Below, piece by piece: positions 7,201 to 54,861 of a stretch of DNA of 56,900 nucleotides. Under the pieces are notes generated by a model, which saw only the letters and a program-made list of their open reading frames with translations, was not told the DNA's origin and made no database searches. The DNA is from a virus: positions 1-56,900 of the IMG/VR virus record IMGVR_UViG_3300048597_000631. One strand, 5' to 3'. Position 1 is the first letter of the stretch. Each line of letters begins with the position of its first letter. Made by a program: the position numbers and the translations under genes.

Positions 7201-8956
7201 ACGTGTTATATCTCGGCACGACGACAACATTGCCGTTGCCGTCGTCATCGCAGCCAAACACAAAACCGATGGACGACACGGCGTAGTTGTCGCCGCCGTC
7301 CATCTGCACCGTCGCCTCCATCAGCGCATCACCGGATTCATCGCTTTCCACGAGCGCAATGAAGGGCTGATTGCGTCCGTCATACACCAGGCCGTTTTTG
7401 GTGGCCTTGTAACCGCGCTCAGCCGGCGTCTTGAGGTTGAGCGCATCCAGTTCAGACAACGTGGTGCGCAGTGCCAGCTGGCTTCGCAAATCCGTCTCTG
7501 TCAGCAGGTTGTGATCGATCAGCTTCTTCTGCCCAAGGTCGCGCGCGGTGATCGCGAGCGCGCCGTGATCGACGCTTGTCTCGCCGGCTGCAAGCGCGGT
7601 GCGCTGCAGGTCATCAATGCCATATACGCCGTAAGCCTCGGCATTGCCGTCATAGCCCAGCTTGAGATATAGCGCCGCGCCATTGCGTACATGCGCATGA
7701 CCATCCCACAGCATGCCGCCACCGGCGGTCGAAGGGTTGGCAAGGCTGAGCGTAAGCTGGTCGGCGGCCTCAGCCGTTTCATCAATGCCAATGCTCTCGA
7801 TGTAGTCGTCGAGCGTTACGGATGCGCTGGCTGCCGGCACTTGCAGTTGGGTGACCGCCGCCGCAAACCCCTGACCGGCGCCGGCGTAATACAGCGTGGC
7901 AGGCGAGTCGTTGCGCAGGAGCAGCGCGCCACGGCAGTCGGTTTTTGTGATGAAGCTTGAGCGCTCATACAGGCTCCAGTGCCACGCATCAGCGGACTGC
8001 AAATACAAATCGAGCGCGGCGACTTGAATCGTGCTGGCCGGCGACACGCGCGTTTTCCGGGTAAAGCGCGCGGTGAGATAGAACACGCTATTGATGCGTG
8101 TGACCGATGCAGGCATAAGGCCGACCAAGCTGGCGCCGGCAGCGATGGGTGCAACGGGTACAAGCGCAGACTCAATGCCTGACTTGATATAAAACTGCAC
8201 CGCGCGGCCGTTTTGCTGATCATTCGCGATCACATGGATTGCGCCTGTTTCGGTGTTCGCGATGGCGGTGATGTATGAGCAGTACTTGGCGCACGAATAC
8301 CATGCACTGTATGCCTCCGAATCAAACATCGGGATCTGGATCAGCGTGTTGAGCACAATGGCAGCGCTCGCCGCCCCTGGGATCCAGTAGAACTGAATGG
8401 TCGAAAGCTTCAGCGTAAAGTCGTGCGTGCCGACGGCGACAACAACGCCATAGTCAGTCGGGCACACCGCCTCCACCCGCCGCACGCGCGACGAGTTATT
8501 GCTGAAAGCCTCACCGAAGGCCAGACCGTAATTCGAGAGCGACACAGACACCGGGTTGGTGGTGCTCGTGAGCGTGGCGCGCTTCACCTGCACGCCGGCG
8601 CCGTCCATCGTAGCGGTGTAAAGCCGGATTGTGCCGCCTTCGTTGACGATGGCCGAGCGCATCGTCTGCACCGACAGCGTCGTGTCTGCCGCCGGCATGC
8701 CATAGTCAGCGTTGTTTGACGTGTCGAACACGCGCAAATAAATGACGCCGGTGTTGTGCATGTAGGTCGCATAAGCGAGCGCGCCTGTATTGCGCATGCA
8801 GAAAGACTGCGCAATCTGTGTGTCGAGAGTGCCGGGGCTGCTCGTGGCAAACGCCGCAAAATGCAGCACCTCGTCGCGCGCGTTGATCGCGATGGCTGGG
8901 TTCACCAGCGGCTGCTGCTGGGCGGCAAGGTTCGCGCCGGAGATGCTGCGCATCAA
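4250..8956 (-). CDS. Large tail-tip / central tail fibre structural protein
   Basis: 1568 aa, the largest protein here, placed between tape measure and fibre, where siphoviruses encode tail-tip hub or central fibre proteins. It is a mosaic of beta-rich segments: an N-terminal propeller-like repetitive part (about 1-350), an LTLSLANPS-containing region near 400 reminiscent of hub proteins, and two regions (about 650-750 and 1250-1450) with the feel of jelly-roll or concanavalin-type binding domains. It overlaps both neighbours by ATGA. No lytic or peptidase motif is obvious. Virion role is inferred from position and length. Confidence 0.7.
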   Translation of the reverse strand: MMRSISGANLAAQQQPLVNPAIAINARDEVLHFAAFATSSPGTLDTQIAQSFCMRNTGALAYATYMHNTGVIYLRVFDTSNNADYGMPAADTTLSVQTMRSAIVNEGGTIRLYTATMDGAGVQVKRATLTSTTNPVSVSLSNYGLAFGEAFSNNSSRVRRVEAVCPTDYGVVVAVGTHDFTLKLSTIQFYWIPGAASAAIVLNTLIQIPMFDSEAYSAWYSCAKYCSYITAIANTETGAIHVIANDQQNGRAVQFYIKSGIESALVPVAPIAAGASLVGLMPASVTRINSVFYLTARFTRKTRVSPASTIQVAALDLYLQSADAWHWSLYERSSFITKTDCRGALLLRNDSPATLYYAGAGQGFAAAVTQLQVPAASASVTLDDYIESIGIDETAEAADQLTLSLANPSTAGGGMLWDGHAHVRNGAALYLKLGYDGNAEAYGVYGIDDLQRTALAAGETSVDHGALAITARDLGQKKLIDHNLLTETDLRSQLALRTTLSELDALNLKTPAERGYKATKNGLVYDGRNQPFIALVESDESGDALMEATVQMDGGDNYAVSSIGFVFGCDDDGNGNVVVVPRYNTWTAYETCDRPRVRTIKLNSIDPDDPDKEDTGWNFKDKTNTLWAWSPALASGLRTQATPGAYRAAFNYQLIKGYLYDVAVRISGRRVQVFVKPRVTGSTTWAANAQYTLWSEFLFDWQAKRSQAGEDQCGLALSTDVWGDTAAFAASAYDDVEQTLTHAANNAKLADYSVIAVQCNGQSPIGDRLSVNCTATPSMLVVGQYVRLRIPDNSDKILKIASITGNNVTFTSHYDLTAPGANGYIQTLATDNIWGFADCGKRNYVATEADELGDLAIPIDPKARKLGRSIRGRAIFISDDNTASSIRMLDSDGVRFWLWSGYENRTRVGWDETNPIASDDDPLYSGGSEPSVWRVVMHHGYVFDGAPSAHGLPASSYLDVDDECLRYAGFTFYKRGMLAQNTWTVVPAFYAPLAEVAGPTSTLRNWRSNTGAQPGDDLGDIQTNFSINPAGLLAEVVSKSGGEIRDDKQYYVASATKVASPTVGNTSYVTLDKPFENSVRGADPNIVLANGEINPALAKTQREGDLVVLSGRGQWNTKKETHDADAPVLYSPRDASGNVSKVIVSRWARYAGRFQTVEDGLRRLAALAGVRNAVFRNDHSAPTANWSGTITTTPQSLPLRTNLANFTLDALVHIPGNDTNAGGIANERRLNIFFRGYYRLSIQQYATAADYAAGRPGVIRIGLATTSTDIAADANGDRWLKVIPIPDTDVNVAGVVSGSNPNYTLSEITSQLVDLRVAVCGERVVVEINRKPFWTFNLDDMTDGSTSWRRDDAGPIQVSHTGTVPGYTATIRVLELGDELSRHTAQKGSSAAMNIDTIKEGRHIRARSTAAGGMEFARFWIRDDAGSLSENMWRHVDGASDVVQRPHVEVTGAEISGEYIDELLAQAQGAQFASITNETVGDWQTAGADALLQMREAGEFADVDTIDAVPLLHLQPEDSLALSYTPGGDSPSHASSPHVLTTKSVRASVDNEGNRAWEATYQIRGFRP

Positions 8957-34171: not shown

Positions 34172-34509
34172 GGTTGCTCCTCGAGTTGATACCTGCCCTG
34201 GGCGATCTGCTCGCGCTGGCTGCGGATGCGCTGGCGCGACTGGTGCGCAGCTTTCAGCGCCGCCGGCGCCCAGGCCGGCACAAACTGGCGCGCGCCGGTT
34301 TTGCCCAGGCTGGCCAGCTCGCCGGCCTTCACCAGCTCGCGCAGGTAGTGCCGCACGTGGCTGGTCGATGCAATCTGCGTGGCGCTGCATATCTCGCGCA
34401 TGCTCGGCGGCCGGCAGTTGCTGACGAAGTAGCTTTCGATGAACGCAACGATCCTCGCGCGCCGTTCGTGGTTCACCTGGTAAGGCTTGAGGTTGTGGAC
34501 GTTCATCAT
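34168..34509 (-). CDS. Winged-helix protein resembling LexA N-terminus
   Basis: 113 aa. Residues about 15-75 (RRARIVAFIESYFVSNCRPPSMREI, then ASTSHVRHYLRELVKAGEL) match the winged helix of LexA-type repressors. The C-terminal part is basic and helical with no protease domain. ATGA overlap links it to the iteron-bearing gene. It likely binds phage promoters or the origin. Confidence 0.8.
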   Translation of the reverse strand: MMNVHNLKPYQVNHERRARIVAFIESYFVSNCRPPSMREICSATQIASTSHVRHYLRELVKAGELASLGKTGARQFVPAWAPAALKAAHQSRQRIRSQREQIAQGRYQLEEQP

Positions 34510-35723
34510 CGTGGCTGAACTTTGCCGGCCAGCCGCTGGGCGGCCAGTCGCTGCTTTTCTGCGCGCTCATCGTCGGTGTAGGCCACCTGCGGCCGGCGAA
34601 ACGTCCTGCCGCTCGTTTGCTGGCTCTCGGCGGCTTTGCGCTCCCGTTCGGCGCGCTTTCGCGCGGCGTCGTCGCTGCCCTGAACCGGCACATCCGGCGG
34701 CGCTTCAAACAGCACCATCTGGCCGGTTTCGGCGTAGTCCTCGAGTATCTTCACCATCACCGCCGGCGCGCTCTTCACGTCCTTGCGCGCGGCAGTGCGT
34801 TCCTGGGCCTTGCGCATGTCGGCCAGGATTTCCTCGGCGCGCTCGGCTGAGAATGACTTTGCGGCCAGCGCGACGATGTGGCCGGCCAGCGCCGTCCGCT
34901 TTGGGTTGCCGATGCCGAACTCAGCCAGCAGGTTGTTCACCCGCTTCCGGAAATCCGCTAAAAGTTCAAAGTTCAGATTTTGGTCAGCATGCATGCATGC
35001 ATGCAGTGATTCACTATTACTAGTACGTACTTGTACAGAATGCATGGTTGAACTTTGAACTTTGAACTCTGAACTTTGAACTTTGAGACCGCTTTCGGGC
35101 GCTTTTATGCTCAAATCTGAACTTTGAGCCGTGGCTAAAAGTTCAGAGTTCATTTTCTCCGGTTCGTTTATGGAAGAATCTGAACTTTGAGAAGTTGAAA
35201 GTTCATTTTTTATGCTCAAATCTGAACACTCTGGAGAGTGCAGCACGCTTTGAACTTTGAACTCTGAACTTTGAAGATGTTGATCTTCGTGGCCGGCGGG
35301 CGGCGTGGGGTGTGCTGGGGGGTGCTGGGGTGTGCTGGGGGGTGCTGGCGCAAGGGGGGCTAGTGTTGGGGCGCTCATGCCGGGTGATGTTGCATCCGGC
35401 TGGGCGTGCTGAAAAGCGGCCTGTTCTGGCGATGCATTGGCCTGTTCTGGCCTGTGCTCTGGCCGGGTCAGCAGGTATTCAGTGGCGCCGTGCTTGTGGC
35501 GCACGCGCGCGATCCAGCCGGCCTCTTCCAGTTCGCCGAGATATTTCACGACGAGTGAATAGGCGCAGCCGGCCTGCGCGGCAATCGCCTTCCCGCTGGA
35601 GGTGAGCCGGCGCGCGGCGCCGGCGGTGCGGGAAAGATGTTCATACAGCAGCTGGGCTTTTCTGCCGAGCCACGGTGTTTCGTTCTGCAATGTCGTGACC
35701 TCGTCGGTCACAGGGCTTGACAT
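34506..35723 (-). CDS. Winged-helix replication-initiator-like protein
   Basis: 405 aa from ATG 35723; a TTG three codons earlier is less likely. Residues about 12-85 form a winged-helix DNA-binding region (GKAIAAQAGCAYSLVVKYLGELEEAGWI). A long low-complexity centre (about 95-240), rich in Pro, Ser and Gln, contains repeats QSSEFKVQS and SDLSIK encoded by iteron-like DNA. The C-terminal ~130 residues are helical and basic and may bind a helicase. This arrangement, with repeats inside the gene, resembles the lambda O type of origin-bearing initiator, but no direct homology is seen. Confidence 0.65.
   Translation of the reverse strand: MSSPVTDEVTTLQNETPWLGRKAQLLYEHLSRTAGAARRLTSSGKAIAAQAGCAYSLVVKYLGELEEAGWIARVRHKHGATEYLLTRPEHRPEQANASPEQAAFQHAQPDATSPGMSAPTLAPLAPAPPSTPQHPPAHPTPPAGHEDQHLQSSEFKVQSVLHSPECSDLSIKNELSTSQSSDSSINEPEKMNSELLATAQSSDLSIKAPESGLKVQSSEFKVQSSTMHSVQVRTSNSESLHACMHADQNLNFELLADFRKRVNNLLAEFGIGNPKRTALAGHIVALAAKSFSAERAEEILADMRKAQERTAARKDVKSAPAVMVKILEDYAETGQMVLFEAPPDVPVQGSDDAARKRAERERKAAESQQTSGRTFRRPQVAYTDDERAEKQRLAAQRLAGKVQPR
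34960..35275. repeat. Iteron-like repeats, candidate replication origin
   Basis: This stretch inside the initiator-like gene carries many direct copies of TGAACTTTGA and variants, including tandem runs at 35048-35086 and 35249-35274. A 20-base repeat beginning TTTTATGCTC occurs twice, near 35103 and 35208. A (GCAT)4GCA run (34987-35005) and TACTAGTACGTACTTGTACA follow. The region is clearly more AT-rich than the genome around it. Confidence 0.6.
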
Positions 35724-35727
35724 GCGT

Positions 35728-35750
35728 TGCAAGATAATTACAATCTTGCA
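35728..35750. promoter_or_regulatory. Inverted-repeat operator before the initiator-like gene
   Basis: TGCAAGAT (35728-35735) and ATCTTGCA (35743-35750) flank AATTACA, five bases before ATG 35723. Its size (23 bases) suits a dimeric repressor, maybe the RHH or winged-helix protein next door. It would block either the start of transcription or translation. Confidence 0.6.
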
Positions 35751-35781
35751 CGGTGTTCACTGCCCGTGACCACCAGTCCTA

Positions 35782-35829
35782 AGTCCGATCGATTTCCTGA
35801 GGAGGATGCGTCGAGCGGACTTTTTTTTT
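35782..35829 (+). terminator. Rightward terminator-like hairpin with T9
   Basis: AGTCCGATCGA (35782-35792) pairs, with one mismatch, with TCGAGCGGACT (35811-35821), directly followed by nine T (35821-35829). It faces rightward, but all coding genes here run leftward, so it may end an antisense or small RNA. Confidence 0.6.
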
Positions 35830-35832
35830 GCC

Positions 35833-36135
35833 TTACGCCGGCACAAGTTCTTCGATGGGGACATACTCAGTCCTGCTTTTTGCGTTTTTGGTTGCGCCGG
35901 CGGCCTCTTTTGGGGTGAGCCCCAGATATTCGCGCGCCGCCGTTCTCCACACTGCTGCACGGTCAACCTTCGCATTCGGGTTTTCGCGTTTTATTTCATC
36001 GACATAGGCGTCGATGGCTTCGTCGAGTTCTGGGTCGACGCGGATCGTGTCGCGCTTTTCTGCGGGAAGCTCCCGCTTGATCTGCTGCTTCAACCGATTC
36101 AACACTTCTTCATTGATCGCTCGCTTTTTTGTCAC
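35833..36135 (-). CDS. Ribbon-helix-helix regulator
   Basis: 100 aa from GTG 36135, with AGGAGG nine bases upstream. The centre reads RDTIRVDPELDEAIDAYVDE, the beta-strand plus helix of an RHH DNA-binding domain, and a second helix with DRAAVWRTAAREYLG. It is the first gene after a promoter carrying the GTGAC-N6-GTCAC operator, so it is either regulated by the XRE repressor or regulates itself. Likely role: control of replication or early genes. Confidence 0.8.
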   Translation of the reverse strand: MTKKRAINEEVLNRLKQQIKRELPAEKRDTIRVDPELDEAIDAYVDEIKRENPNAKVDRAAVWRTAAREYLGLTPKEAAGATKNAKSRTEYVPIEELVPA

Positions 36136-36164
36136 TCTTAATCGCCTCCTGACAGGTTTCAATA

Positions 36165-36197
36165 GTGACTATAAGGTCACGTCGGACATTTTGTCAA
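36165..36197 (-). promoter_or_regulatory. Leftward promoter with operator
   Basis: Leftward -35 TTGACA (36197-36192), 18-base spacer, -10 TATAGT (36173-36168). The palindrome GTGAC-TATAAG-GTCAC (36165-36180) overlaps the -10, and GTCCGAC (36187-36181) lies just after the -35. The same elements occur at 40415-40461. Confidence 0.8.
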
Positions 36198-36206
36198 GTG
36201 CAACAA

Positions 36207-36234
36207 AAAACCCCGTTCGATTGAACGGGGTTTT
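36207..36234 (-). terminator. Terminator after the lipoprotein gene
   Basis: AAAACCCCGTTC (36207-36218) and GAACGGGGTTTT (36223-36234), loop GATT. On the leftward strand the stem is followed by TTG and the promoter of the next operon. It isolates the regulatory operon from the moron block. Confidence 0.9.
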
Positions 36235-36250
36235 GTGAACGCGTTTCAGG

Positions 36251-36568
36251 CTACTCATACGTCAGCGCCAGCATGTGCCAGGTTGCCTCGCGCCATTCCA
36301 TCCGGCATCTGTAGTGCATGCGCAGCATGGCGCCGAAGCTGTTTTCGGCATCAACATACGAATACACATTCCACTTGCTGGTGTTGGCTTGATCGATCTC
36401 GATGCGCGCTTCATCCGCCGGCGGAAATTTTGCAGTGGCTGGCGCTTTGAGTTTGGTCAACACGAAGTCGTAACAGGTGCGCACAGCCAGCGTCTCACGT
36501 GAGGGCGGCGGCTGGTTGCAGCTCGTGAGCAGCCAGAAGACCAGAAGAAGATAGGTTGTCGTTTTCAT
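36251..36568 (-). CDS. Predicted lipoprotein
   Basis: 105 aa. The N-terminus MKTTTYLLLVFWLLTSC is a lipoprotein signal with lipobox LTSC; Cys17 would be lipidated. The mature part has two more Cys and is about 85 residues long. It overlaps the upstream stalked surface protein by ATGA. Small phage lipoproteins often block superinfection; here that is an inference from type and context (lysogeny block). Confidence 0.75.
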   Translation of the reverse strand: MKTTTYLLLVFWLLTSCNQPPPSRETLAVRTCYDFVLTKLKAPATAKFPPADEARIEIDQANTSKWNVYSYVDAENSFGAMLRMHYRCRMEWREATWHMLALTYE

Positions 36569-37311
36569 TTCTCTTCAATCGAGCCCATCTCCAGCGTCCG
36601 CACTGTTTGCAATCCATACAGACGATAGGGCACGCCCGCGAACTCGGTTTCTTTCACCACGCCAGGCTCAGTGATCGTTCCCATTGTGGTAGCCACCCAC
36701 TCGCGCGCGTCGCGCGGCTGCGCGTTGTCATACGGCATGGTGGCGATGAATCCCAGAATGCCCATTGCAGCCAGATCCTCGTCGCTATACTGGATCACCG
36801 TCGCATCGATGTAATCGACCGACTGAAGCGACCTGCCCCACACTTCCACGCTCGACTCATATTGCAGCGCCGGCTTCTCGCTCTTGCACCGCCACACGTA
36901 GTAATTGCCCGAGGGCGTCGGCTCGGCGGCCTCGCACGTGAAGTCGCGCTGCTCCAGGTTGACCGTGATATCTGCCGGCTGCAACCCAGGGATCGTGCCG
37001 CCGCCGGCGCTCACCTGATCAGGCGCAGCGACCGCTGCCACCGTCGGCGCCGCTGTGGGGGCTTCTGCCGGCGCAGCGGTCGCTTGTTCGGTCGGGGCTG
37101 CCGCAGGTGGCTCGGTGGCCGTCGGTTCGGTGGCCGTCGGCTCGATGAGCACGTCTTGCACAGCTGGGGCGGGCGTTGCCGTCGCCGGCTGGCTCGGCGA
37201 CAGCACTGCGCCGAGCACGCTCAGCCCGCAGCAGGCGATGACGATCGCAAGTGCGCCAATGAGGATTTTCGAAAGGGTGCTACGTTTGGGTTTGGAAGAT
37301 GTGTTTTGCAT
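36565..37311 (-). CDS. Membrane-anchored stalked surface protein
   Basis: 248 aa from ATG 37311 with GAGGAT ahead. Residues about 15-40 form a membrane anchor, then comes a Thr/Ala/Pro/Glu-rich stalk (about 42-105) and a globular domain (about 110-248) with two Cys and several Trp/Tyr. Such stalks are typical of exported proteins in Chloroflexota-like bacteria. It is paired with the lipoprotein gene and may act with it at the cell surface, for example in superinfection exclusion. Confidence 0.7.
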   Translation of the reverse strand: MQNTSSKPKRSTLSKILIGALAIVIACCGLSVLGAVLSPSQPATATPAPAVQDVLIEPTATEPTATEPPAAAPTEQATAAPAEAPTAAPTVAAVAAPDQVSAGGGTIPGLQPADITVNLEQRDFTCEAAEPTPSGNYYVWRCKSEKPALQYESSVEVWGRSLQSVDYIDATVIQYSDEDLAAMGILGFIATMPYDNAQPRDAREWVATTMGTITEPGVVKETEFAGVPYRLYGLQTVRTLEMGSIEEK

Positions 37312-37442
37312 GGGATCCTCGACAACAGTGATGCCAAGGGATGCAAACACATTACACAGCGTGCGACATCCCCCGCCTCACCTGGTCTAGGGTGATAGTC
37401 GCACATCGCCGGCGCCGGCGCATCGGTCAGAGGCATGAATGC

Positions 37443-37472
37443 AAAAGAAAACCCCGCCAGTGCCGGCGGGGT
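37443..37472 (-). terminator. Terminator after the ATPase-nuclease gene
   Basis: ACCCCGCC (37451-37458) and GGCGGGGT (37465-37472), and on the leftward strand TTTTCTTTT follows. It ends the ATPase-nuclease transcript 30 bases after its stop and separates it from the surface-protein pair. Confidence 0.9.
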
Positions 37473-37501
37473 AAACATTGCCTTGCGAATCTGCTGTGTC
37501 T

Positions 37502-39454
37502 CTACGCTGGATCAGTAACCGTCACGGGTTCAACGTGGATGCTTGTGTCTGCGAATACATCCTTGTTCAACTTCTGAATCTTATCTTTTAGCCTGAATGT
37601 GCGAGCATGTGCACGGCGGATGATGACTTCATACGGCGCCGCGAAGATGGTTGTGTTGCCTTCTTGTATTACGTCGCGCGCATTGGACTTAACCTCACAA
37701 CCAAGCACGTAACAGACGATCTTTGTATATTCCTGTATCTTGCCACTCTCTCGAAGAATTGACGCATAGTTGGCCGCCTGCATCCGTTCTTCTCGTCCAA
37801 TTTTGAATCCGCCACGCTTAAGTTCAAGGATAAATATGTGATCAAACCCAACAACTTCAGGATCGACACTTTGATCAAGAGATCCAAAACGCTCGCTGGC
37901 ATAGAAACCCAAAGAGCCATCTGGAAGCGCTACAAAATCCGCCCGCTTGCGTGGGTCACTGAGCTTTGCCTTATCATCGCCCAGAAGATCGCGCACCACT
38001 GTCGCGAGTGTTCGGTTGGATTGGAAGTGCACTGACTCATATTCTGGGCCAAATATCCATAGCCCATTTTCAAACAGCGGGTGAATTTCATGCAGCTCAT
38101 CAGTCGTTGGATTGCCCACGCGTTCCTCAAGTGCTTCAATCAACTTCAGCCGCCGATCCAATTCATCTAAAACGAGATACGCCTCTCTCACAGACCACTT
38201 CTCAAGCAGTGTATGCAGCTGATCCAGTTCGCTTGAAGATAGATGCGCAAGCTGTCTAAGCAAATCGGTTCCAGACCGAGAACGCTCCATCTGTGTAAGG
38301 ACGGTCAGCATGTAATCCAAATCCTTATTCGATAGCGTAGGGCGTTCCCGCTGCGCGATGTCGATAAACTCATTGATGAAATAACGAGATCCGTTGGACA
38401 ACTCTCGCAACTCTCTGCCGTGGTTGCTCAAAGCCTTCTTTTTTTGTGCCAACAATTCCGCGCTGAATAGACGTTGGATTTCACGGTTAATGTAGTCACG
38501 AACTTCGATGCGCACCTTCTCCACTGCAGGGGAATCTTTGAATCCTGTCCAGTCCGTTTCTACGTGGTCTTCCAGCACATCGGCTTTCACAATGAAGCTA
38601 TAACTTCGCGCTTCAGCCAACCGGCGATCAATGGCCATCTGTTGTTCATCGCCATGCTTCCATGATGGCGTGTCGATCAGTTTTTTGTTCACCCACCACG
38701 CAATCCCATGCTGGGTGCTTGCCCGACCAACCACGGGGCTTTGCACACGAAAGACAATAACGTCGCCAACATCTTTCACATGCAATGTCTTGCTATGTCC
38801 TGTATTTAGATCGGTGAAATCAATGGGTTGATCGTTGACCATGATTTTGAATGCAGGATCCAATGCGAATTTTGTGCTCAGCAGCTTGCTTACATCGCTG
38901 ACCGACAATGCTCCGCGCACAAGCCTGCAAGACAAAATCGTACCATGGCCATCCCTTGGCGCAAGCTTCTCGCGGGTAACTTGAACTGGCAACTTTGCCA
39001 TTCCTTTTACCCACCGCACATGCCATCGCGAACATTCACCGTTCTTCCACGTTTCGACTGTGTATAAGTCAGCAAAGCAGAACATGCTGTGTCTGCCCTT
39101 GCCGTTGCGTCCGTGGGCCTTTCGGGGTGATGTTGCGTTGCCTGCTGGGAAAATCACTTCCCGCCCCTGCTTTGATACACGGCTGTAATTCCATGTCATC
39201 CAGCGATCTTGGAATTCAGCGATGGTCATTCCCGTGCCATCATCCTCAATCACAATTTCTTCATCTGGCGCTGCGTCCATCGACTTTTCAATTTTTGGCC
39301 ATGTGATCTTCACAACATTCGCGCCAGCATCCCATGCATTGGAGATCACTTCGACGAGTGCGATTTGTGAATCTTTGAGTAAACGCCCAGCATGGTCGAT
39401 GAGAAATTCAGACCCATACGTAAATGCTATTGATGATTTAGGTGTTTTGGGCAT
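37502..39454 (-). CDS. GHKL (HSP90/MORC-type) ATPase fused to PD-(D/E)XK-like nuclease
   Basis: 650 aa from ATG 39454. The GHKL ATP-binding fold is complete: N box EVISNAWDAG (35-44), G1 box IEDDGTGM (69-76), and lid/G2 GRNGKGRHS (115-123). A S5-like transducer and helical linker follow (about 150-420). The C-terminal ~180 residues carry RKRADF near 507 and FILELKRGG with E544-x-K546, a PD-(D/E)XK/Shedu-like nuclease core. GHKL-nuclease proteins occur in restriction and defence loci. The gene lacks GCCGGC and is less GC-rich than its neighbours, so it was probably acquired. As a lysogen-expressed moron it may protect the host from other phages. Confidence 0.8.
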   Translation of the reverse strand: MPKTPKSSIAFTYGSEFLIDHAGRLLKDSQIALVEVISNAWDAGANVVKITWPKIEKSMDAAPDEEIVIEDDGTGMTIAEFQDRWMTWNYSRVSKQGREVIFPAGNATSPRKAHGRNGKGRHSMFCFADLYTVETWKNGECSRWHVRWVKGMAKLPVQVTREKLAPRDGHGTILSCRLVRGALSVSDVSKLLSTKFALDPAFKIMVNDQPIDFTDLNTGHSKTLHVKDVGDVIVFRVQSPVVGRASTQHGIAWWVNKKLIDTPSWKHGDEQQMAIDRRLAEARSYSFIVKADVLEDHVETDWTGFKDSPAVEKVRIEVRDYINREIQRLFSAELLAQKKKALSNHGRELRELSNGSRYFINEFIDIAQRERPTLSNKDLDYMLTVLTQMERSRSGTDLLRQLAHLSSSELDQLHTLLEKWSVREAYLVLDELDRRLKLIEALEERVGNPTTDELHEIHPLFENGLWIFGPEYESVHFQSNRTLATVVRDLLGDDKAKLSDPRKRADFVALPDGSLGFYASERFGSLDQSVDPEVVGFDHIFILELKRGGFKIGREERMQAANYASILRESGKIQEYTKIVCYVLGCEVKSNARDVIQEGNTTIFAAPYEVIIRRAHARTFRLKDKIQKLNKDVFADTSIHVEPVTVTDPA

Positions 39455-39486
39455 GAGCAATTAAGGCTTTTGTTAGTAATAAGTGG

Positions 39487-39861
39487 TTACCGCCCAATCC
39501 AGCACCGCACGCCGCCATGCCGGCTGCACGCGCCGCTGCCCGTCGCGCTCGACGAGGTGCCGTCATTGCAAATCGCCCCCACCCTCGTCGTGCCGGTGCT
39601 GTTTGGGCACCACGGCGCGCCGGTGGGCGGATTCGGCGGTTGCGGGTTTGCCGTGGGCAGGACCGTCGGCGCCGGCGCTGTTGTCGGCACCAGCGTCGGC
39701 ACAGGTGCAGCCGTCGGCGCCGGCGCTGTTGCCGCAGCCGGCTTTTGCACGATCGGCAAATACGACACCGGCACAACGCCCTCGGCGCTCGCCGGCAGAA
39801 TCGCCACGGCAACGAAGCACACACACGCGATGATGAGCGCAATGACACTGCGCTGTTTCAT
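39487..39861 (-). CDS. Secreted DUF3761-like protein with Ala/Pro/Thr stalk
   Basis: 124 aa. Residues 1-26 are a signal peptide (VIALIIACVCFVAVAILPASA). A repetitive Pro/Ala/Thr/Val stalk covers about 40-85. The C-terminus has CNDGTSSSATGSGACSRHGGV, which matches the short Cys-rich DUF3761 domain (C-N-D-G ... C-S-x-H-G-G-V). It sits between the repressor and the ATPase-nuclease, so it is likely expressed in the lysogen. It may be displayed outside the cell; function unknown. Confidence 0.7.
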   Translation of the reverse strand: MKQRSVIALIIACVCFVAVAILPASAEGVVPVSYLPIVQKPAAATAPAPTAAPVPTLVPTTAPAPTVLPTANPQPPNPPTGAPWCPNSTGTTRVGAICNDGTSSSATGSGACSRHGGVRCWIGR

Positions 39862-39880
39862 GATCTAACCCCCGTTATTT

Positions 39881-39997
39881 TTAGTCCACGAATACCCACA
39901 GCCGGCCGTCATCGCCGATCTGCCACGTGCCGCGCTGAAGCTGGCGCTCGATCTTGACCACTTCAATGACGAGCGGGAGCACGCCCGCCCTTCGCAC
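39881..39997 (-). CDS. Possible small protein after the repressor
   Basis: 38 codons from GTG 39997, overlapping the repressor stop by 35 bases. The part after the overlap (KIERQLQRGTWQIGDDGRLWVF) looks protein-like, but the frame has no clear ribosome-binding site. A longer start at 40048 or 40144 would run inside the repressor. Low confidence. Confidence 0.3.
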   Translation of the reverse strand: MRRAGVLPLVIEVVKIERQLQRGTWQIGDDGRLWVFVD

Positions 39998-40385
39998 CCT
40001 GTTTGCCAGCACCCGCGCTTGTATTCTTTTTGCCCCGCTGCGCGACATGTCGAATAAGGGTTGCCACCAGCGAGAATGTCTGCTTTCGCTCTTCCGGATC
40101 GTCGATGTCATTGAGCAGCCCTGAAAGAACCTGTGCTTCCTCATCGTCCATCACCTGCTTTTCTGGAAGAATCCCGAACTCTCTATATACGACCTCAGTA
40201 GGCATCCCCAGACCGGACGCTATTCCAGTTGCAAGTTTTTTCCCAACGTTTCGTTTACCTGAATAGACGTTGGTCAATGCAGCAGGATTGAAATTGCCGC
40301 GTCGGGCCAACTCCGCGCGATCAATGCCTTGCGCTCGCAATTGTTCATTCAACCACGCGAGTCCTTCGTCAGTCGTTTTGTTCAC
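39963..40385 (-). CDS. XRE-family repressor (CI-like)
   Basis: 140 aa from GTG 40385. Residues about 10-70 form an XRE/Cro-type HTH (LNEQLRAQGIDRAELARRGN, then NVYSGKRNVGKKLATGIASGLG). There is no cleavable peptidase domain, so it would not be RecA-inactivated by the lambda mechanism. The C-terminus is basic. It faces the rightward early operon across 166 bases with several operator-like repeats, the classical place for a lysogeny repressor. Confidence 0.85.
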   Translation of the reverse strand: MNKTTDEGLAWLNEQLRAQGIDRAELARRGNFNPAALTNVYSGKRNVGKKLATGIASGLGMPTEVVYREFGILPEKQVMDDEEAQVLSGLLNDIDDPEERKQTFSLVATLIRHVAQRGKKNTSAGAGKQGAKGGRAPARH

Positions 40386-40414
40386 AGGAATACAGTTTAA
40401 AACTCATTACTTTT

Positions 40415-40430
40415 GTGACCACAAAGTCAC
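40415..40430. promoter_or_regulatory. Operator GTGAC-N6-GTCAC
   Basis: A 16-base palindrome (GTGAC 40415-40419, CACAAA, GTCAC 40426-40430) placed two bases before the -35 of the rightward early promoter and about 30 bases before the repressor start. It matches the operator at 36165-36180 in arms and spacing. Confidence 0.75.
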
Positions 40431-40432
40431 TA

Positions 40433-40461
40433 TTGACAAAACGTCAGACATTTGCTAAAGT
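40433..40461 (+). promoter_or_regulatory. Rightward early promoter
   Basis: TTGACA (40433-40438), 17-base spacer, TAAAGT (40456-40461). GTCAGAC (40443-40449) just after the -35 parallels GTCCGAC in the 36 kb promoter. It would drive the long early operon up to the recombinases and be shut by the repressor. Confidence 0.75.
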
Positions 40462-40462
40462 C

Positions 40463-40480
40463 ACTTTTGTATCCAAAAGT
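40463..40480. promoter_or_regulatory. Inverted repeat just downstream of the early -10
   Basis: ACTTTTG (40463-40469) and CAAAAGT (40474-40480) flank TATC, right at the expected transcription start. Half-sites of the form AGTCACT/AGTTCACT surround it. Probably a further repressor or regulator site. Confidence 0.6.
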
Positions 40481-40551
40481 TCACTATTGATTAGTCTCCT
40501 TTTAGGCTTAGGACACCTGAAAACGAGGCAAAGGACAAAGGTCACGGGCAT

Positions 40552-40950
40552 ATGGAATCGAATGAAATGAACAACCCCACGCCGGCAATCGAGGACGCCA
40601 TCGCCGACACGCATGCCGTCCCCGCCACGCACGCCGGCATCGAGTGGTATCGCCGGCAGCTCTACCGCACCGAGTGCGCGCTCGCCGACGCCACCGCCGT
40701 CAATCAAGACCTCAAGACCGAGAACGCAAACCTGCGTCAGGAAGCGGTCGAGCTGCACGAGCTGCTCGCCGTGGCCAACGAGACGATTGGCAACCTTGAG
40801 CGGTCGCTGCAAACCGAGCGCGGGCTGGTGCGGCTGGCCATCGACGCCGCCGGCCTGTTCAGCCTCACCGAGCGCAGCCGGCGCATGCTGCGCGTCCACA
40901 ACGCCGTTCGCATCCACAACGCCGTGCGCATGCAGCGCATGCACCTGTAG
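40552..40950 (+). CDS. Hypothetical coiled-coil protein, first early gene
   Basis: 132 aa (a start at 40567 would be five residues shorter). Residues about 40-95 form a Leu/Glu/Ala-rich coiled coil; the C-terminus repeats the motif VHNAVR / IHNAVR and ends in a His/Met-rich tail. First gene behind the early promoter, so possibly a regulator or antirepressor, but no family is recognised. Ribosome-binding site is weak. Confidence 0.6.
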   Translation: MESNEMNNPTPAIEDAIADTHAVPATHAGIEWYRRQLYRTECALADATAVNQDLKTENANLRQEAVELHELLAVANETIGNLERSLQTERGLVRLAIDAAGLFSLTERSRRMLRVHNAVRIHNAVRMQRMHL

Positions 40951-43947: not shown

Positions 43948-44213
43948 CACAGGCTGCTGCATGGCGATCCATCCCCCGCGCGCAGGCGCCGGCACGCCGG
44001 CCAGGCGGCCCGAAGAGCAAATACATCGCGCCGATCAACGCCGCGCTGCGATCCACCGACCACGTGATCGAGATCGACTGCGCCGGCAAACAAGCGCGCA
44101 CCGTCTACGCCGCCGTGAAGACCGCCGCAAAGCGCATGGGCGCGGCCCAGCGCGTCAGCGCGTGGATCCTCGACGGCAAGGTCTACGTGGCACAGAAGGA
44201 GTCAGGACAATGA
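43944..44213 (+). CDS. Hypothetical basic 89-aa protein
   Basis: GTG 43944 overlaps the previous stop as GTGA with GAGGTG upstream. The product has a basic, Pro/Ala/Arg-rich N-terminus and a compact alpha/beta C-terminal part (AAVKTAAKRMGAAQRVSAWILDG). No family recognised. Coupled to the ParB-like gene by ATGA, so it may work with segregation or be a small DNA-binding protein. Confidence 0.6.
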   Translation: MTQAAAWRSIPRAQAPARRPGGPKSKYIAPINAALRSTDHVIEIDCAGKQARTVYAAVKTAAKRMGAAQRVSAWILDGKVYVAQKESGQ

Positions 44214-45187
44214 CCGACCATCTCATCTTCCTCAACCACACCCAGCTCGCGCGGCACACGCACAACATGCGCCGCGCATATCCCGCCACGGCCGTGCGCA
44301 AGATGGGCGCAAGCCAGCTCGACCGCGCGCGCGAAGGCAAGCCGTGCTGCCTGCAGCCGCTGGTGGTCACCGCCGGCGCCGGCATTGAATATGACCCGCA
44401 GCAGCACACCGCCTTCACCATCGTCGCTGGCCACCTGCGCCACGCCGGCAATGCCTGGCTTGGCGAGAAAGCGCCGCCGCTGCCGTGCATCGTTCGCTAC
44501 TATGCCACCGAGGCCGACATGCTCGCCGACATGGGCACCGAGAACGGCGTGCGCGAGGATGTGGGCGTGATCGGCTGGGCGCAATACCTCAAAGGCCAGA
44601 TCGCCGCCGGCGTGCCGATGCATCAGTTGTTGCGCCGCACGGGTCTGCCGCTGTCGCGCGTCGAGCGCCTGCTCGATGTGGCTGAGATGCCCGGCCTCGT
44701 GCAGGGCGTCTTCGACCGCGGCGAATTGCCGCTGCTAGCCGTCGTGCCGCTGAAGTGGATCACCGATCGCGCCCAGCTGATCGAGCTGGCCGTCAAGCTG
44801 GGTGAGAAGCGCGCCACGCTGTCGCAGGTCGAGATGGCCGTGAAGGCCCTGCGCACCGGCACGCCGACCGAGCGCAAATATCAGCGCAAGGTGCACGCTG
44901 TGCGGGCAGAGATTCCCGCGCTCGATGGCGTGCCAGCCGCGTTGCCGGCCACCCTGGGTGATGTGCGGCGTGGCGCGGCAAAGGCCTGCGCTGCGTGCGA
45001 AATCGGGCGCGACCTGCCGCTCGACGAGCCGGCCTGGCGCATCGCCGTGGAAGCAGCGTCGAACACGTGCAAGGCCTGCGACCTGAAGGCTTTCGAGCAG
45101 GTGTGCAAAGCCTGCCCGCTGGCCGAGGCCATGCGCAACGTGGTCAAGGCCATCAAAGCCGAGGTGAAAGCCGAGGTGCCGGCGTGA
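44210..45187 (+). CDS. ParB-like protein with Cys-rich C-terminus
   Basis: 325 aa from ATG 44210. A ParB/Srx-like N-terminal domain is visible: LQPLVV (about 45-50), FTIVAGHLRHAG (68-79, in place of the usual I-V-x-G-x-R-R), and ENGVRED (about 110). The HTH region follows (LLRRTGLPLSRVERLLDVAEM, about 143-163). The C-terminus has three C-x-x-C motifs (259-305), perhaps a zinc-binding dimer domain, which is unusual for ParB. It would bind a centromere and, with the ParM/ParR-like genes 3 kb downstream, segregate DNA, or act as a ParB-type regulator or nuclease. Confidence 0.7.
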   Translation: MTDHLIFLNHTQLARHTHNMRRAYPATAVRKMGASQLDRAREGKPCCLQPLVVTAGAGIEYDPQQHTAFTIVAGHLRHAGNAWLGEKAPPLPCIVRYYATEADMLADMGTENGVREDVGVIGWAQYLKGQIAAGVPMHQLLRRTGLPLSRVERLLDVAEMPGLVQGVFDRGELPLLAVVPLKWITDRAQLIELAVKLGEKRATLSQVEMAVKALRTGTPTERKYQRKVHAVRAEIPALDGVPAALPATLGDVRRGAAKACAACEIGRDLPLDEPAWRIAVEAASNTCKACDLKAFEQVCKACPLAEAMRNVVKAIKAEVKAEVPA

Positions 45188-46383
45188 CCATCGACACGCT
45201 GCTCACCCGCGTCGCCTGGGCAACCGACAAGAGCCGCCGGCGCGCCGCGGCACGCCGCTGGACGAAGGCCGAGATCGTGCGGCTGCATGACCTGGTCGGC
45301 AAGCGCAATGTCACGGCCATCGCCCGCGAGCTGGGCCGCTCGCGCAACGCCGTCGCGTCGAAGCTGATGCAGCTCGGCTACCGCATCAAGCGCGACGTGC
45401 AGCAGCCGGTCGGCCTCAACGCCCGCGAGCTGAGCGCGCTGATCGACGTGCCCTACGAGCAGGTTGTGCGCGACATCAACGCCGGCGTGATCAAAGGCGC
45501 GTTCCGTGAAAGCAAGAAGGACTTCATGGTGCCGTGGCGCAGTGTGCGGTCATATGAGAATCGCATGCAGCGCATCCGCACCCGCCGCGAAAAGGCCATT
45601 GCGCGCATCAAGGAAGAGACGATCACCAAGCAGGAGGCCATGCAGATCCTCGGCCTGAGCGAGACGCACCTCACACGCTACCTGCAGGGCAAGATTGTCA
45701 AAGCGTGGAAGATCCCGACGATCTTCACCACCGTCACCAAGTGGCGATGGGAATGGCTGGTGTCGAAGCGCGACGCCGAGCGTGTGCGCGACCTGCGCGC
45801 TGCCGGCAAGCTCCACGTGCGCATGCGCAAAAAGGCATATCGCAAGATCGCCGACGCGGCAAACCAGACGGTGCTGCAGATGCGCCGCGAGCAGCGCGCT
45901 GGACAGCGATCTGCCAAAACACTCAAGGCATTCGGGCCGCGCAATGCCGTGGTGCCAGGTCACTACACCATCGCCCAGGTTGCGCAGATCGTCGGCATCT
46001 CGACGCAGCAGGTTTACGAGCACAGCCGCAACGGCCGGCTGCAGTCCGCAAGCGTGCGCGTGGGCCGGCGCGCCTTCCGCACGATCACACCCGAGGCGCT
46101 CGAAGCCTACAAGGCCTGGCACGCGCGCCCGGTCAAGGCGACCGGCCCGATGGAGGCATGGCGCACAGGCCGCAACGCCGTGCACAAGGCCGGCCTGCTC
46201 ACCACGCGCGAGTCGGCTGATCGCTACGGCCTGGTCTTCGGCTCGCTGGTGTGCGCTGCGCGCGATGGACGAGTGAAGCATCGCAAGATCAAAAACCTCT
46301 TGGCTTTCAAGCCTGAGGATGTTGAAGCATACGCAGCCGGCATGCGCCGGCGCAAGGGAAAGAGTTTGAAGGAGGAAGCATGA
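45184..46383 (+). CDS. Protein with tandem HTH domains
   Basis: 399 aa from GTG 45184 (GTGA overlap). It starts with a SANT/Myb-like HTH (RRWTKAEIVRLHDLVGKRN, about 20-65) and then has at least four MerR/excisionase-type HTH units: near 80-120 (LNARELSALIDVPYEQ), 145-185 (ITKQEAMQILGLSETHL), 260-310 (YTIAQVAQIVGISTQQVYE) and 330-385 (LTTRESADRYGLV). Few phage proteins have so many DNA-binding units. It lies between ParB-like and ParM-like genes, so it could organise a centromere or origin. Confidence 0.75.
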   Translation: MTIDTLLTRVAWATDKSRRRAAARRWTKAEIVRLHDLVGKRNVTAIARELGRSRNAVASKLMQLGYRIKRDVQQPVGLNARELSALIDVPYEQVVRDINAGVIKGAFRESKKDFMVPWRSVRSYENRMQRIRTRREKAIARIKEETITKQEAMQILGLSETHLTRYLQGKIVKAWKIPTIFTTVTKWRWEWLVSKRDAERVRDLRAAGKLHVRMRKKAYRKIADAANQTVLQMRREQRAGQRSAKTLKAFGPRNAVVPGHYTIAQVAQIVGISTQQVYEHSRNGRLQSASVRVGRRAFRTITPEALEAYKAWHARPVKATGPMEAWRTGRNAVHKAGLLTTRESADRYGLVFGSLVCAARDGRVKHRKIKNLLAFKPEDVEAYAAGMRRRKGKSLKEEA

Positions 46384-47363
46384 ACGTCATTGGTCTGGAT
46401 CTGGGCATGGGCGCCACGAAATTGTGGAGCGCAAACGGCGGCAAGGTCATCCTGTCGCAGGTCGCCATGCCGACCCGCGAGGACATCGACCTGAAGGCGC
46501 TCGGCATGAGCGCGAAGCGCAAGCCTGTCGTCATCCTGAACGGCATGGGCCGGCTGCTGGTGGGCGAAGGCGCCCACGACGCCGGCACGCCGATCGAGCG
46601 GCTCGATTACGAGCGCCTCACCGGCTCACCTGAAATGAAGGCGCTGGTCTACGCCGCGCTGGCCACCCAGGACACGAGCGAGACGGACCCCATCGCCTTG
46701 ATGGTCGGCCTGCCGCTGGGCCTGGCCGCCGGCGACGAGTCCAAGCGCCGCATCGATGCCGTGAAGACCTGGCTGACCGGCGCGCACGTGTGGAAGGCCG
46801 ACCGGCGCGAGCACGTGGCCGTCGTCGACCGCGTCGGCTGTGTGTCGCAGGCGCACGCTGCATATCTCGACTGGCTGCTGAACGACGATGGCAAGCCCAT
46901 GGGCCGGCCCGTGAAGGGCAGAGAGATCGCGGTGATATCCGTCGGCTTCAACACCATCGAGATGGTCGTCCTGCGCGACAACCAGGCCATCAGTCGCTTC
47001 GTCGCCGGCGAGAAGCTGGGCGTACGGCGCTTTCTCGAGCTGGTGAACGAAGGCCGGCGCGGGTTGTTCTCCCTGGGTGAGCTCGACATCAAGCTGCGCG
47101 CCGGCGGGCTCGACGAGCCGGTGGCGCAATCGAAATGGAGCGCCCAGGTGCACGGCCACATCGAGCGCACCTGGTCGGATGCCGCTGGCCGTTTCGATCA
47201 GGTCATCGCCGTCGGCGGCGGTTCGCTGCTCCTGCATGACGCGCTCGTCGATCTGTTCGGCGGCCGGCTGATCGAGAGTGACGAGCCGGTGCTCAGCGTC
47301 GCGCGCGGCCTTTACAAGTTTGGGCTGATGCAAAAACTGAACGTGAAGGAGGCGGTGAAGTAA
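46380..47363 (+). CDS. ParM-like actin homologue
   Basis: 327 aa with AAGGAGG before ATG 46380. Actin-fold landmarks are present: phosphate-1 GLDLGMGATK (5-14), phosphate-2 VISVGFNTIEM near 184-194, adenosine motif IAVGGGSLL near 276-284. This is the ParM/Alp class of plasmid-segregation actins, which polymerise with ATP to push plasmid copies apart. Overlaps the tandem-HTH gene by ATGA and is followed by a ParR-like adaptor in TAATG coupling, so a complete type II partition pair is likely. Confidence 0.85.
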   Translation: MNVIGLDLGMGATKLWSANGGKVILSQVAMPTREDIDLKALGMSAKRKPVVILNGMGRLLVGEGAHDAGTPIERLDYERLTGSPEMKALVYAALATQDTSETDPIALMVGLPLGLAAGDESKRRIDAVKTWLTGAHVWKADRREHVAVVDRVGCVSQAHAAYLDWLLNDDGKPMGRPVKGREIAVISVGFNTIEMVVLRDNQAISRFVAGEKLGVRRFLELVNEGRRGLFSLGELDIKLRAGGLDEPVAQSKWSAQVHGHIERTWSDAAGRFDQVIAVGGGSLLLHDALVDLFGGRLIESDEPVLSVARGLYKFGLMQKLNVKEAVK

Positions 47364-53374: not shown

Positions 53375-53872
53375 ATGGAAGAAATCCAGTTTGATTACAA
53401 AGGCAAGACGCATGCCGTCGCAGTTGATGACGATGCACTAGAGACATTGAACAAGCATCAATGGTATGGGTTCGAATCGCCTGGTGGCTATCTTTATTGC
53501 GCACGATTCTCGGGCGACTTTTCCAATCCTGTTTGGTTTTTGCATTGGGACATTATGGGCAAGCCTGCGAAGGGGTATCACGTTGACCATAGAGACGGCA
53601 ACACACTAAATTGTCAGCGCGTCAACATGAGGATATGCACTCATCGCGAGAACCTGACAAACAGGAAGCGGCACAAAAACAACACGTCGGGATACAAGGG
53701 CGTAACACGCAACAAGGGCAAGTGGGGTGCACAGATAAAGTCCAACTATAAGTTGATTTGGTTGGGAACATTTGACGATCCAGTGTCTGCTGCATTGGCC
53801 TATGACAGAGCTGCACGTGAAATCTTTGGAGAGTTTGCGAATCTCAACTTTCCAGACGCGTCAAAGTCGTGA
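53375..53872 (+). CDS. HNH-AP2 homing endonuclease
   Basis: 165 aa. The start ATG 53375 leaves out a 24-codon extension. HNH motif: YHVDHRDGNTLNC with RENLTNR (about 70-110). An AP2 domain follows (SGYKGVTRNKGKWGAQI, LGTFDDPVSAALAYDRAA, about 108-160), giving DNA recognition. It is less GC-rich than the rest and lacks GCCGGC, so it invaded recently. It lies between the Mom-like gene and the integrase without disrupting either. Free-standing homing endonucleases of this kind spread between phages. Confidence 0.88.
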   Translation: MEEIQFDYKGKTHAVAVDDDALETLNKHQWYGFESPGGYLYCARFSGDFSNPVWFLHWDIMGKPAKGYHVDHRDGNTLNCQRVNMRICTHRENLTNRKRHKNNTSGYKGVTRNKGKWGAQIKSNYKLIWLGTFDDPVSAALAYDRAAREIFGEFANLNFPDASKS

Positions 53873-54861
53873 TCGTAAATTCAAGTTTGAGAATGGAGAA
53901 ATCACCGATTGTTCAGAACCCCGCCGGCGCACCGGACACGACCACCGTGTCTGACTCAACGGCGCGTTATATCCGCGCCTCGCGTGCCTACAACACCCGC
54001 CGCGCTTACCAGTCCGATCTGCGCGACTTTCGCGAATGGTGTGAGGACAACAACCGTGCGCACTTCCCAGCGGTGCCAAAGACGGTTGCTGATTACCTTG
54101 CATACCTGGCTGATCAAGGCATGAAGGTCTCGACGATCGAGCGGCGCAACGTGGCCATCAGCGAGGCGCACAAGTCTGCCGGCGTGCCGAACCCGACCGC
54201 GACAGAGATCGTGCGCAAAGCCATGAGCGGCATTCGACGAGAACACGGCGCGCCCAGGCGCAAGGTGCGCGCCGTGACCGTGCGCGAGCTGCGCGCAATG
54301 TGTGAGGCCATGCCTGACACGCTCGCCGGCTATCGAGATCGCGCGATCCTTTGTGTGCAGTTCGCCGGCGCCATGCGCAGGTCTGAGCTGTCGAGCCTGA
54401 TCGTCGAGGATGTGGAGTGGGGTGTGGATGAGGTAGCGCTGACCATTCGACGCTCGAAGACCGACCAGGCCGGCGAGGGCATGCGCAAAGTGCTGCCGGC
54501 CTCAAGCGATCCAGCTATCTGCCCTGTGCGGCTGCTCAGGCGATGGCTGACCACCGCCGGTATTGACGACGGCGCGGTGTTTCGTGGGGTCGATCAGCAC
54601 GGCCACGTGGGCGCCGGCGCGCTGACGCCTGGCAACATCGCGCTGGTCTGGAAGCGCGCAGCCGAGCGGGTGGGGATTGCAGCAGATCGGGTGAGTGGCC
54701 ACAGCGCGCGGCGCGGCTTCATCACAGAAGCATTCAAGGCTGAGGTGGCCGAGGCGGACATTCAACAGGTCACTGGACACAAGTCCATCGCCGTCTTGCG
54801 CGACTACCGCGCCGATGCCGGCCAGGCACAGCGCAAGGCCGTGAACAAAGTGATGGGATAA
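53869..54861 (+). CDS. int: Tyrosine recombinase / integrase
   Basis: 330 aa from GTG 53869 (overlap with HNH stop); ATG 53893 gives eight residues less and is equally possible. Core-binding SAM-like domain about 30-115. Catalytic residues visible: R170 (GAMRRSEL), K197 (SKTDQ), H278-x-x-R281 (HSARR), H304 (TGHKS) and nucleophile Y313. It could integrate the phage at an attachment site or resolve dimers of a circular replicon. Confidence 0.92.
   Translation: MIVNSSLRMEKSPIVQNPAGAPDTTTVSDSTARYIRASRAYNTRRAYQSDLRDFREWCEDNNRAHFPAVPKTVADYLAYLADQGMKVSTIERRNVAISEAHKSAGVPNPTATEIVRKAMSGIRREHGAPRRKVRAVTVRELRAMCEAMPDTLAGYRDRAILCVQFAGAMRRSELSSLIVEDVEWGVDEVALTIRRSKTDQAGEGMRKVLPASSDPAICPVRLLRRWLTTAGIDDGAVFRGVDQHGHVGAGALTPGNIALVWKRAAERVGIAADRVSGHSARRGFITEAFKAEVAEADIQQVTGHKSIAVLRDYRADAGQAQRKAVNKVMG

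Follow-up and report, generated by a model that had tools for sequence, protein, structure and literature searches.

The question raised by this locus is whether two outward-facing early promoters, PR (40433, plus strand) and PL (36197, minus strand), with a repressor gene located between them, are controlled by one and the same protein. The window, i.e., the whole stretch of DNA that was analysed, is the IMG/VR virus record IMGVR_UViG_3300048597_000631 (56.9 kb; 56,900 nt). A preliminary description had noticed the palindrome GTGAC-N6-GTCAC at both promoters and had proposed a two-promoter switch of the lambda type, governed either by the XRE protein encoded at 39963 or by the RHH protein encoded at 35833. 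The promoters and their candidate operators are the following:

36159-36180, minus strand: OL, GTGACCTTATAGTCACTATTGA, over the PL -10 and start point, with matches to the shared element, the palindrome and AGTCACTWTTG
36168-36197, minus strand: PL, leftward, TTGACA-18-TATAGT, a good sigma-70 match
36184-36196, minus strand: TGACA-N3-TGTCA inverted repeat on the PL -35, one mismatch
40409-40436, plus strand: OR1, operator-like sequence ACTTTTGTGACCACAAAGTCACTATTGA, which abuts and overlaps the PR -35 and contains GTGAC-N6-GTCAC at 40415-40430; copy of a 28-nt repeat, 19/22 identical to the PL site
40433-40461, plus strand: PR, rightward, TTGACA-17-TAAAGT, a good sigma-70 match
40434-40446, plus strand: TGACA-N3-TGTCA inverted repeat on the PR -35, one mismatch
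40463-40490, plus strand: OR2, ACTTTTGTATCCAAAAGTTCACTATTGA, second copy of the 28-nt repeat, over the PR start point, with AGTCACTWTTG at 40459

Both palindromes were found where they had been described, as exact matches with no other copy in the window: the one at 36165-36180 covers the PL -10, and the one at 40415-40430 stops 3 bp short of the PR -35. Two exact copies were reached in 0 of 100 shuffles (mean 0.06); every motif considered here was defined post hoc, after the sequence had been seen, and shuffle figures are to be read as descriptive. The original judgement that the repeats are too similar to be due to chance is justified for the exact palindrome but not for its relaxed form, which shows no excess: the search of the window with one mismatch, which had been proposed as a check, gave one extra site at 4189, hence three sites against 2.25 expected by chance, and is a weak test that leaves the exact motif clean. 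With only two exact copies in the window, we rejected the idea that the operator is simply a frequent motif. Among other spacings of GTGAC and GTCAC, only N7 occurs in the window, at 35695 and 48221; the former copy (35695-35711) lies just upstream of an antisense promoter described below.

The second sequence reported as common to both promoters, TTGACAAAA-N-GTC-N-GAC, was also confirmed, at 36181-36197 on the minus strand and 40433-40449 on the plus strand, and these two sites are the only ones in the window even when two mismatches are allowed (0.05 expected by chance). The likeness extends beyond the palindrome to a 22-nt element, GTGACC-NNANA-GTCACTATTGA, which is identical at 19 of 22 positions between PR and PL, and in the 22-nt comparison the PL site matches the PR region better than any other site in the window. 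PR is bracketed by the two copies of the 28-nt direct repeat (82% identical), and the half-site AGTCACTWTTG has three copies in the window, all at these promoters. The sole match to the 22-nt operator pattern among viral contigs (L005) falls inside a long coding gene and was dropped.

In three other elements, too, an XRE repressor gene lies next to PR and a further promoter is similar to PR. The virus IMGVR_UViG_3300033067_001362 (G003), reached via rep, encodes an XRE protein 42-44% identical to that of the window, and its layout is the mirror image: PR, XRE (2132-2572), a DNA methylase fusion (2733-4427), terminator, PL (4497-4526), RHH-like gene (4554-4853) and rep (5005-6051). Its shared operator, GGCAA-N5-GTTCTCTTGTG, is unlike that of the window but is placed alike, covering the PL -10 and lying immediately before the PR -35. 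G324 is a short (9 kb) prophage-like contig (C56) in a MAG of a Chloroflexota class, found by a profile search of 396 genomes of a Chloroflexota MAG's class and then of 28 genomes of one family. The order in it is XRE, a small ORF, a YccF-like ORF, a further small ORF, terminator, PL, RHH-like gene and a winged-helix rep-like gene, with a third operator sequence around CTGTAGTG. The contig (locus L055) also carries, downstream of rep at 5064-8592, csf2-like and csf3-like type IV CRISPR genes (8e-19 and 5e-14, below cut-offs) and a PAPS-reductase gene, the whole forming a type IV-B-like locus in a prophage-like element. G410, the virus IMGVR_UViG_3300044606_000254, is a short contig (20 kb) with two tandem XRE genes, and differs in that the second promoter drives the second XRE gene, followed by a serine-recombinase-like gene; both its promoters contain TGACA-N3-TGTC.

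The distance between the two shared sites is 4.2, 2.4, 1.3 and 0.6 kb in the four elements. The XRE gene is divergent from PR in all of them, and three of the four keep the layout of PR, repressor with variable cargo and terminator, then PL leading to the RHH-like gene and rep, with the terminator right before PL. A layout that is kept while the shared sequence differs from one element to another has, as judged from this comparison, the look of heteroimmune lambda-type immunity regions; the changed operator in the same layout of G003 and G324 is as expected if operator and repressor change together. A second site was not found in two further XRE-bearing loci with their flanking DNA (G002 and G014), the first of which shares ParA and one cargo gene with the window and has an RHH gene on the PR side. 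The same was true of XRE relatives in other Chloroflexota genomes (L030, L032-L038, L040) within the few kb scanned; among these further relatives, only G014/L042 was covered over 8 kb.

The best 22-mer match between the two promoters of an element was 19 of 22 in the window, 17 in G003 (the weakest), 20 in G324 and 20 in G410, as compared to 12-17 of 22 between elements. In dinucleotide shuffles of both regions (mean 13.5-14.0), the observed value was reached in 0, 7, 0 and 0 of 2000, respectively. In each contig the best match of the PR region was the second promoter, in G003 tied with a promoter-like site at 10512. Such similarity might be a relic of promoter duplication, or reflect a common type of host promoter, without any repressor that acts on both, and in G324 and G410 the shared stretch does take in everything from -35 to -10. 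We regard this as very improbable: the similarity is kept within elements while the sequences differ between them, and in the window and G003 the operator and promoter alignments lie at different offsets, which one duplicated block would not explain.

Control of both promoters by one repressor, in the lambda manner, is thus the favoured, though predicted, reading of the preliminary proposal, and it is now suggested by shared sites at two promoters in four elements instead of one. The candidate repressor and the genes that follow it are:

39963-40385, minus strand: XRE (helix-turn-helix) protein, proposed prophage repressor, 140 aa (PHROG transcriptional repressor, 9e-5)
39881-40048, minus strand: small ORF that overlaps the XRE gene at its 3' end in the +1 frame, with a conserved RLWV motif (alignments of two and four members)
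37502-39460, minus strand: cargo, GHKL-ATPase protein with a relationship to BbrUII/HgiDII-type restriction enzymes in their N-terminal part
36251-37350, minus strand: cargo, two small ORFs (36565-37350 and 36251-36568), possibly secreted or lipoprotein-like by inspection
36204-36237, minus strand: terminator closing the repressor-cargo operon, immediately before PL (inverted repeat; fold z-score -4.9)

The XRE gene adjoins PR and is transcribed away from it, and the small ORF, the cargo and the terminator follow on the same strand right before PL, with co-transcription predicted. The match of the XRE protein to Pfam HTH_3 is below the curated cut-off. Its model (mean pLDDT 79) consists of an HTH domain and two helices, the closest solved folds being Stl, restriction controller proteins (C-proteins) and ClgR, and a C-terminal S24 peptidase domain, responsible for autocleavage, was found neither by domain search nor in the model nor by fold search. 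Relatives of the protein are 26-41% identical in a ten-row alignment. The GHKL cargo protein matches the BbrUII/HgiDII restriction enzyme model at 3.6e-26, which falls far short of the cut-off of that model. A small ORF with a conserved RLWV or RLWI end, in a shifted frame after or overlapping the XRE gene, was observed in five of five elements (window 39881-40048, minus strand; L013 2490-2657; L055 1133-1312; L052 5215-5391; L056 2109-2396, minus strand); it may be either a coupled gene like hex of phage 434 or a frameshift extension of the repressor.

Of the two regulators originally put forward, XRE is favoured as the common repressor, on predicted binding, because it is beside PR in all four elements while G410 has no detectable RHH gene; autoregulation is the more likely role of the RHH-like protein. 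The opposite assignment, in which the RHH-like protein represses both PL and PR and XRE acts elsewhere or only on its own promoter, could be argued from the position of the RHH-like gene at the head of the PL operon in three elements and from the 13-bp symmetric TGACA-N3-TGTCA element on both -35 boxes, such as a small RHH repressor would be expected to recognise. It is XRE, however, that always neighbours PR, and GTGAC-N6-GTCAC and its counterparts vary between elements, as does the XRE recognition helix. Moreover, G410 has no RHH gene by sequence and still has two promoters matching at 20 of 22 positions, a weak point, since the Pfam RHH model misses the protein of the window as well. We consider this assignment quite unlikely. 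Scans of viral contigs and annotated phages with the XRE and RHH proteins gave no usable relative (one weak match, for XRE), and the related elements were reached via rep, a ParA-like protein and profiles.

The 13-bp element, with at most one mismatch, occurs in the window solely on the two -35 boxes. Its count is not above that of shuffles (mean 1.41), and its weight comes from its position on the -35 and its recurrence in relatives. Exact TGACA-N3-TGTC is present at both shared promoters of G410 and at PL of the window and of G003, and absent from the G324 contigs and from 11 other related stretches scanned (L007, L011, L012, L014, L017, L019, L020, L024, L026, L028, L041; about 195 kb without overlaps). 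In G003, TGACA-N3-TGTCA is found at PL, as a one-mismatch copy at PR, and as two exact copies (L013 10498-10534) before a DUF3467 gene, possibly a third operon under the same regulator. Each promoter has two distinct shared elements: the operator lies over the -10 of PL but upstream of the -35 of PR, while the -35 element keeps the same place and is found conserved in three of the viruses and contigs compared, although these have different operators otherwise. These observations would fit two regulators: XRE would occupy the GTGAC-type operators, and the RHH-like protein, a second repressor in the manner of Cro, would bind TGACA-N3-TGTCA. This would be a refinement of the preferred explanation rather than an exclusive alternative. 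The -35 element is absent from G324 and could also belong to the XRE site or simply reflect what the promoter prefers, and we hold the refinement to be a real possibility that falls somewhat short of even. A cro-like first gene of the PR operon was not found; the first PR gene (40552-40950) gives weak coiled-coil matches only.

The leftward operon, first described as regulatory, is more specifically a probable replication-control operon:

35833-36135, minus strand: RHH-like gene (by pattern), first of the PL operon, probable GTG start at 36135, SD AGGAGG
35717-35744, plus strand: antisense promoter TTGACA-16-TACAAT between the RHH-like gene and rep, with its -10 inside a palindrome
35751-35831, plus strand: predicted antisense RNA of about 80 nt, intrinsic terminator at 35781-35831 (inverted repeat and T9)
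34506-35732, minus strand: rep, replication-initiation (O-like) protein, second PL gene (phrog_270, 1.6e-7; phrog_391, 5e-5)

The RHH-like protein had no family match in any library, the Pfam RHH model included. It is 36% identical to the first PL gene product of G003, and its low-confidence model has the order strand-helix-helix; the Foldseek result for this model was discarded as meaningless because of its pLDDT of 60. A promoter between the RHH-like gene and rep, facing back to the former, is present in three elements, namely the window (35717-35744, 11/12), G003 (4977-4948, 10/12) and G324 (2472-2444, 9/12 with an extended -10), and each has a hairpin with a T-rich tail just past the RHH-like stop codon. 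Compared with shuffles, these hairpins are stronger in the window (z -2.8) and G324 (z -3.0), and only moderate in G003 (z -1.7). The predicted antisense RNA loci are 35717-35831 (plus strand) in the window, L013 4977-4855 (minus strand) and L055 2472-2366 (minus strand), and gave no family match against Rfam. In the window and G003, a palindrome contains or adjoins the antisense promoter -10, and GAGGAG is found in the terminator loops.

This order of genes is also that of copG-RNAII-repB of pMV158 and copB-copA-repA of R1, in which one promoter serves a small repressor gene, an intergenic antisense promoter and a replication initiator (PMC5717011). The PL operon shares with them the antisense promoter and terminator between the first gene and rep, which in three elements match the consensus; transcription, the RHH identity, the antisense RNA and copy control are predicted. 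Unlike in pMV158 and R1, PL also carries the proposed prophage operator, and rep is O-like by its PHROG match.

In phage lambda, PL and PR are both repressed by CI, which binds at OL and OR, and cI and the rex genes share the transcript that starts at PRM (PMC11077077); OL lies 2.3 kb from OR in that phage and about 0.7 kb from it in HK022 (PMC8053113). As in these phages, the repressor gene and lysogeny cargo are flanked by a pair of outward early promoters with operators in common, the cargo stands behind the repressor in what is predicted to be the repressor's own operon, and the operator sequence differs among relatives. In contrast, the repressor of the window has no S24 peptidase domain in its model, rep is placed in the PL operon behind the RHH-like gene, and one or two operator copies are recognised per side instead of lambda's three. 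With no recognisable cro and no S24 repressor domain, these elements, which share the layout, would work like lambdoid immunity regions but are not classed among them. In phage 434, hex is a small ORF that partly overlaps the repressor gene on the same transcript (PMC3564112); the resemblance of the small ORF of the window is one of arrangement. The CI/MOR switch of the TP901-1 type, in temperate phages, also combines a repressor with divergent promoters, and the whole functional switch there occupies less than 1 kb (PMC7250872), whereas the promoters of the window are set apart by the repressor and cargo genes.

Taken together, the region is likely, on sequence grounds, to be the immunity region of a temperate virus. 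One repressor for both early operons is the most likely arrangement, as in phage lambda, because the relatives pair their promoters likewise with other site sequences. XRE would be the prophage repressor, binding OR1 and OR2 around PR and OL over the PL -10; we infer this assignment of protein to site, as well as repression and lysogeny. In a lysogen, XRE would keep the PR and PL early operons off, while the leftward operon of repressor, small overlapping ORF, restriction-like and other cargo and terminator would remain on. Any looping between OL and OR, 4.25 kb apart, is likewise inferred. With the small RHH-like gene first, then the replication initiator and the putative antisense promoter between them, PL would in effect be a replication-control promoter, probably fine-tuned by the RHH-like protein, which may also act on PR, via the 13-bp repeats on the -35 boxes.

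PR reads into a region that holds, further on, ParB-like and partition proteins, a clamp loader and an integrase. The partition-type proteins (46380-47363 and 43961-45187; phrog_691 and ParB-like phrog_6218) and the integrase gene (53869-54861) occur in the same record, which raises the possibility that this virus can persist in plasmid form. A protein at 52665-53300 matches Mom-like DNA modification proteins (1e-8). The host is probably a member of the Chloroflexota, since relatives of one protein, the ParA-like protein, occur in MAGs of Anaerolineales and other Chloroflexota, and since G324 belongs to a Chloroflexota MAG.

In a literature search judged by title and abstract, no paper on repressor control in Chloroflexota phages was found, and this may be the first immunity system with predicted operators for the phylum. 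The comparative set is small (the window, G003, G324 and G410), and its four repressor-operator pairs of differing predicted specificity provide material for direct immunity tests. The variable cargo slot behind the repressor, occupied by a restriction-like GHKL protein, a DNA methylase fusion or a membrane protein, is a place to look for defence genes. More tentatively, and with less than an even chance in our estimation, the prophage repressor may be wired straight onto a plasmid-type replication-control operon (CopG-like RHH, antisense RNA, rep), with immunity and copy number decided at one promoter, possibly in a phage-plasmid with partition genes. If the PL operon is copG-like, lysogeny would be tied to plasmid copy control.
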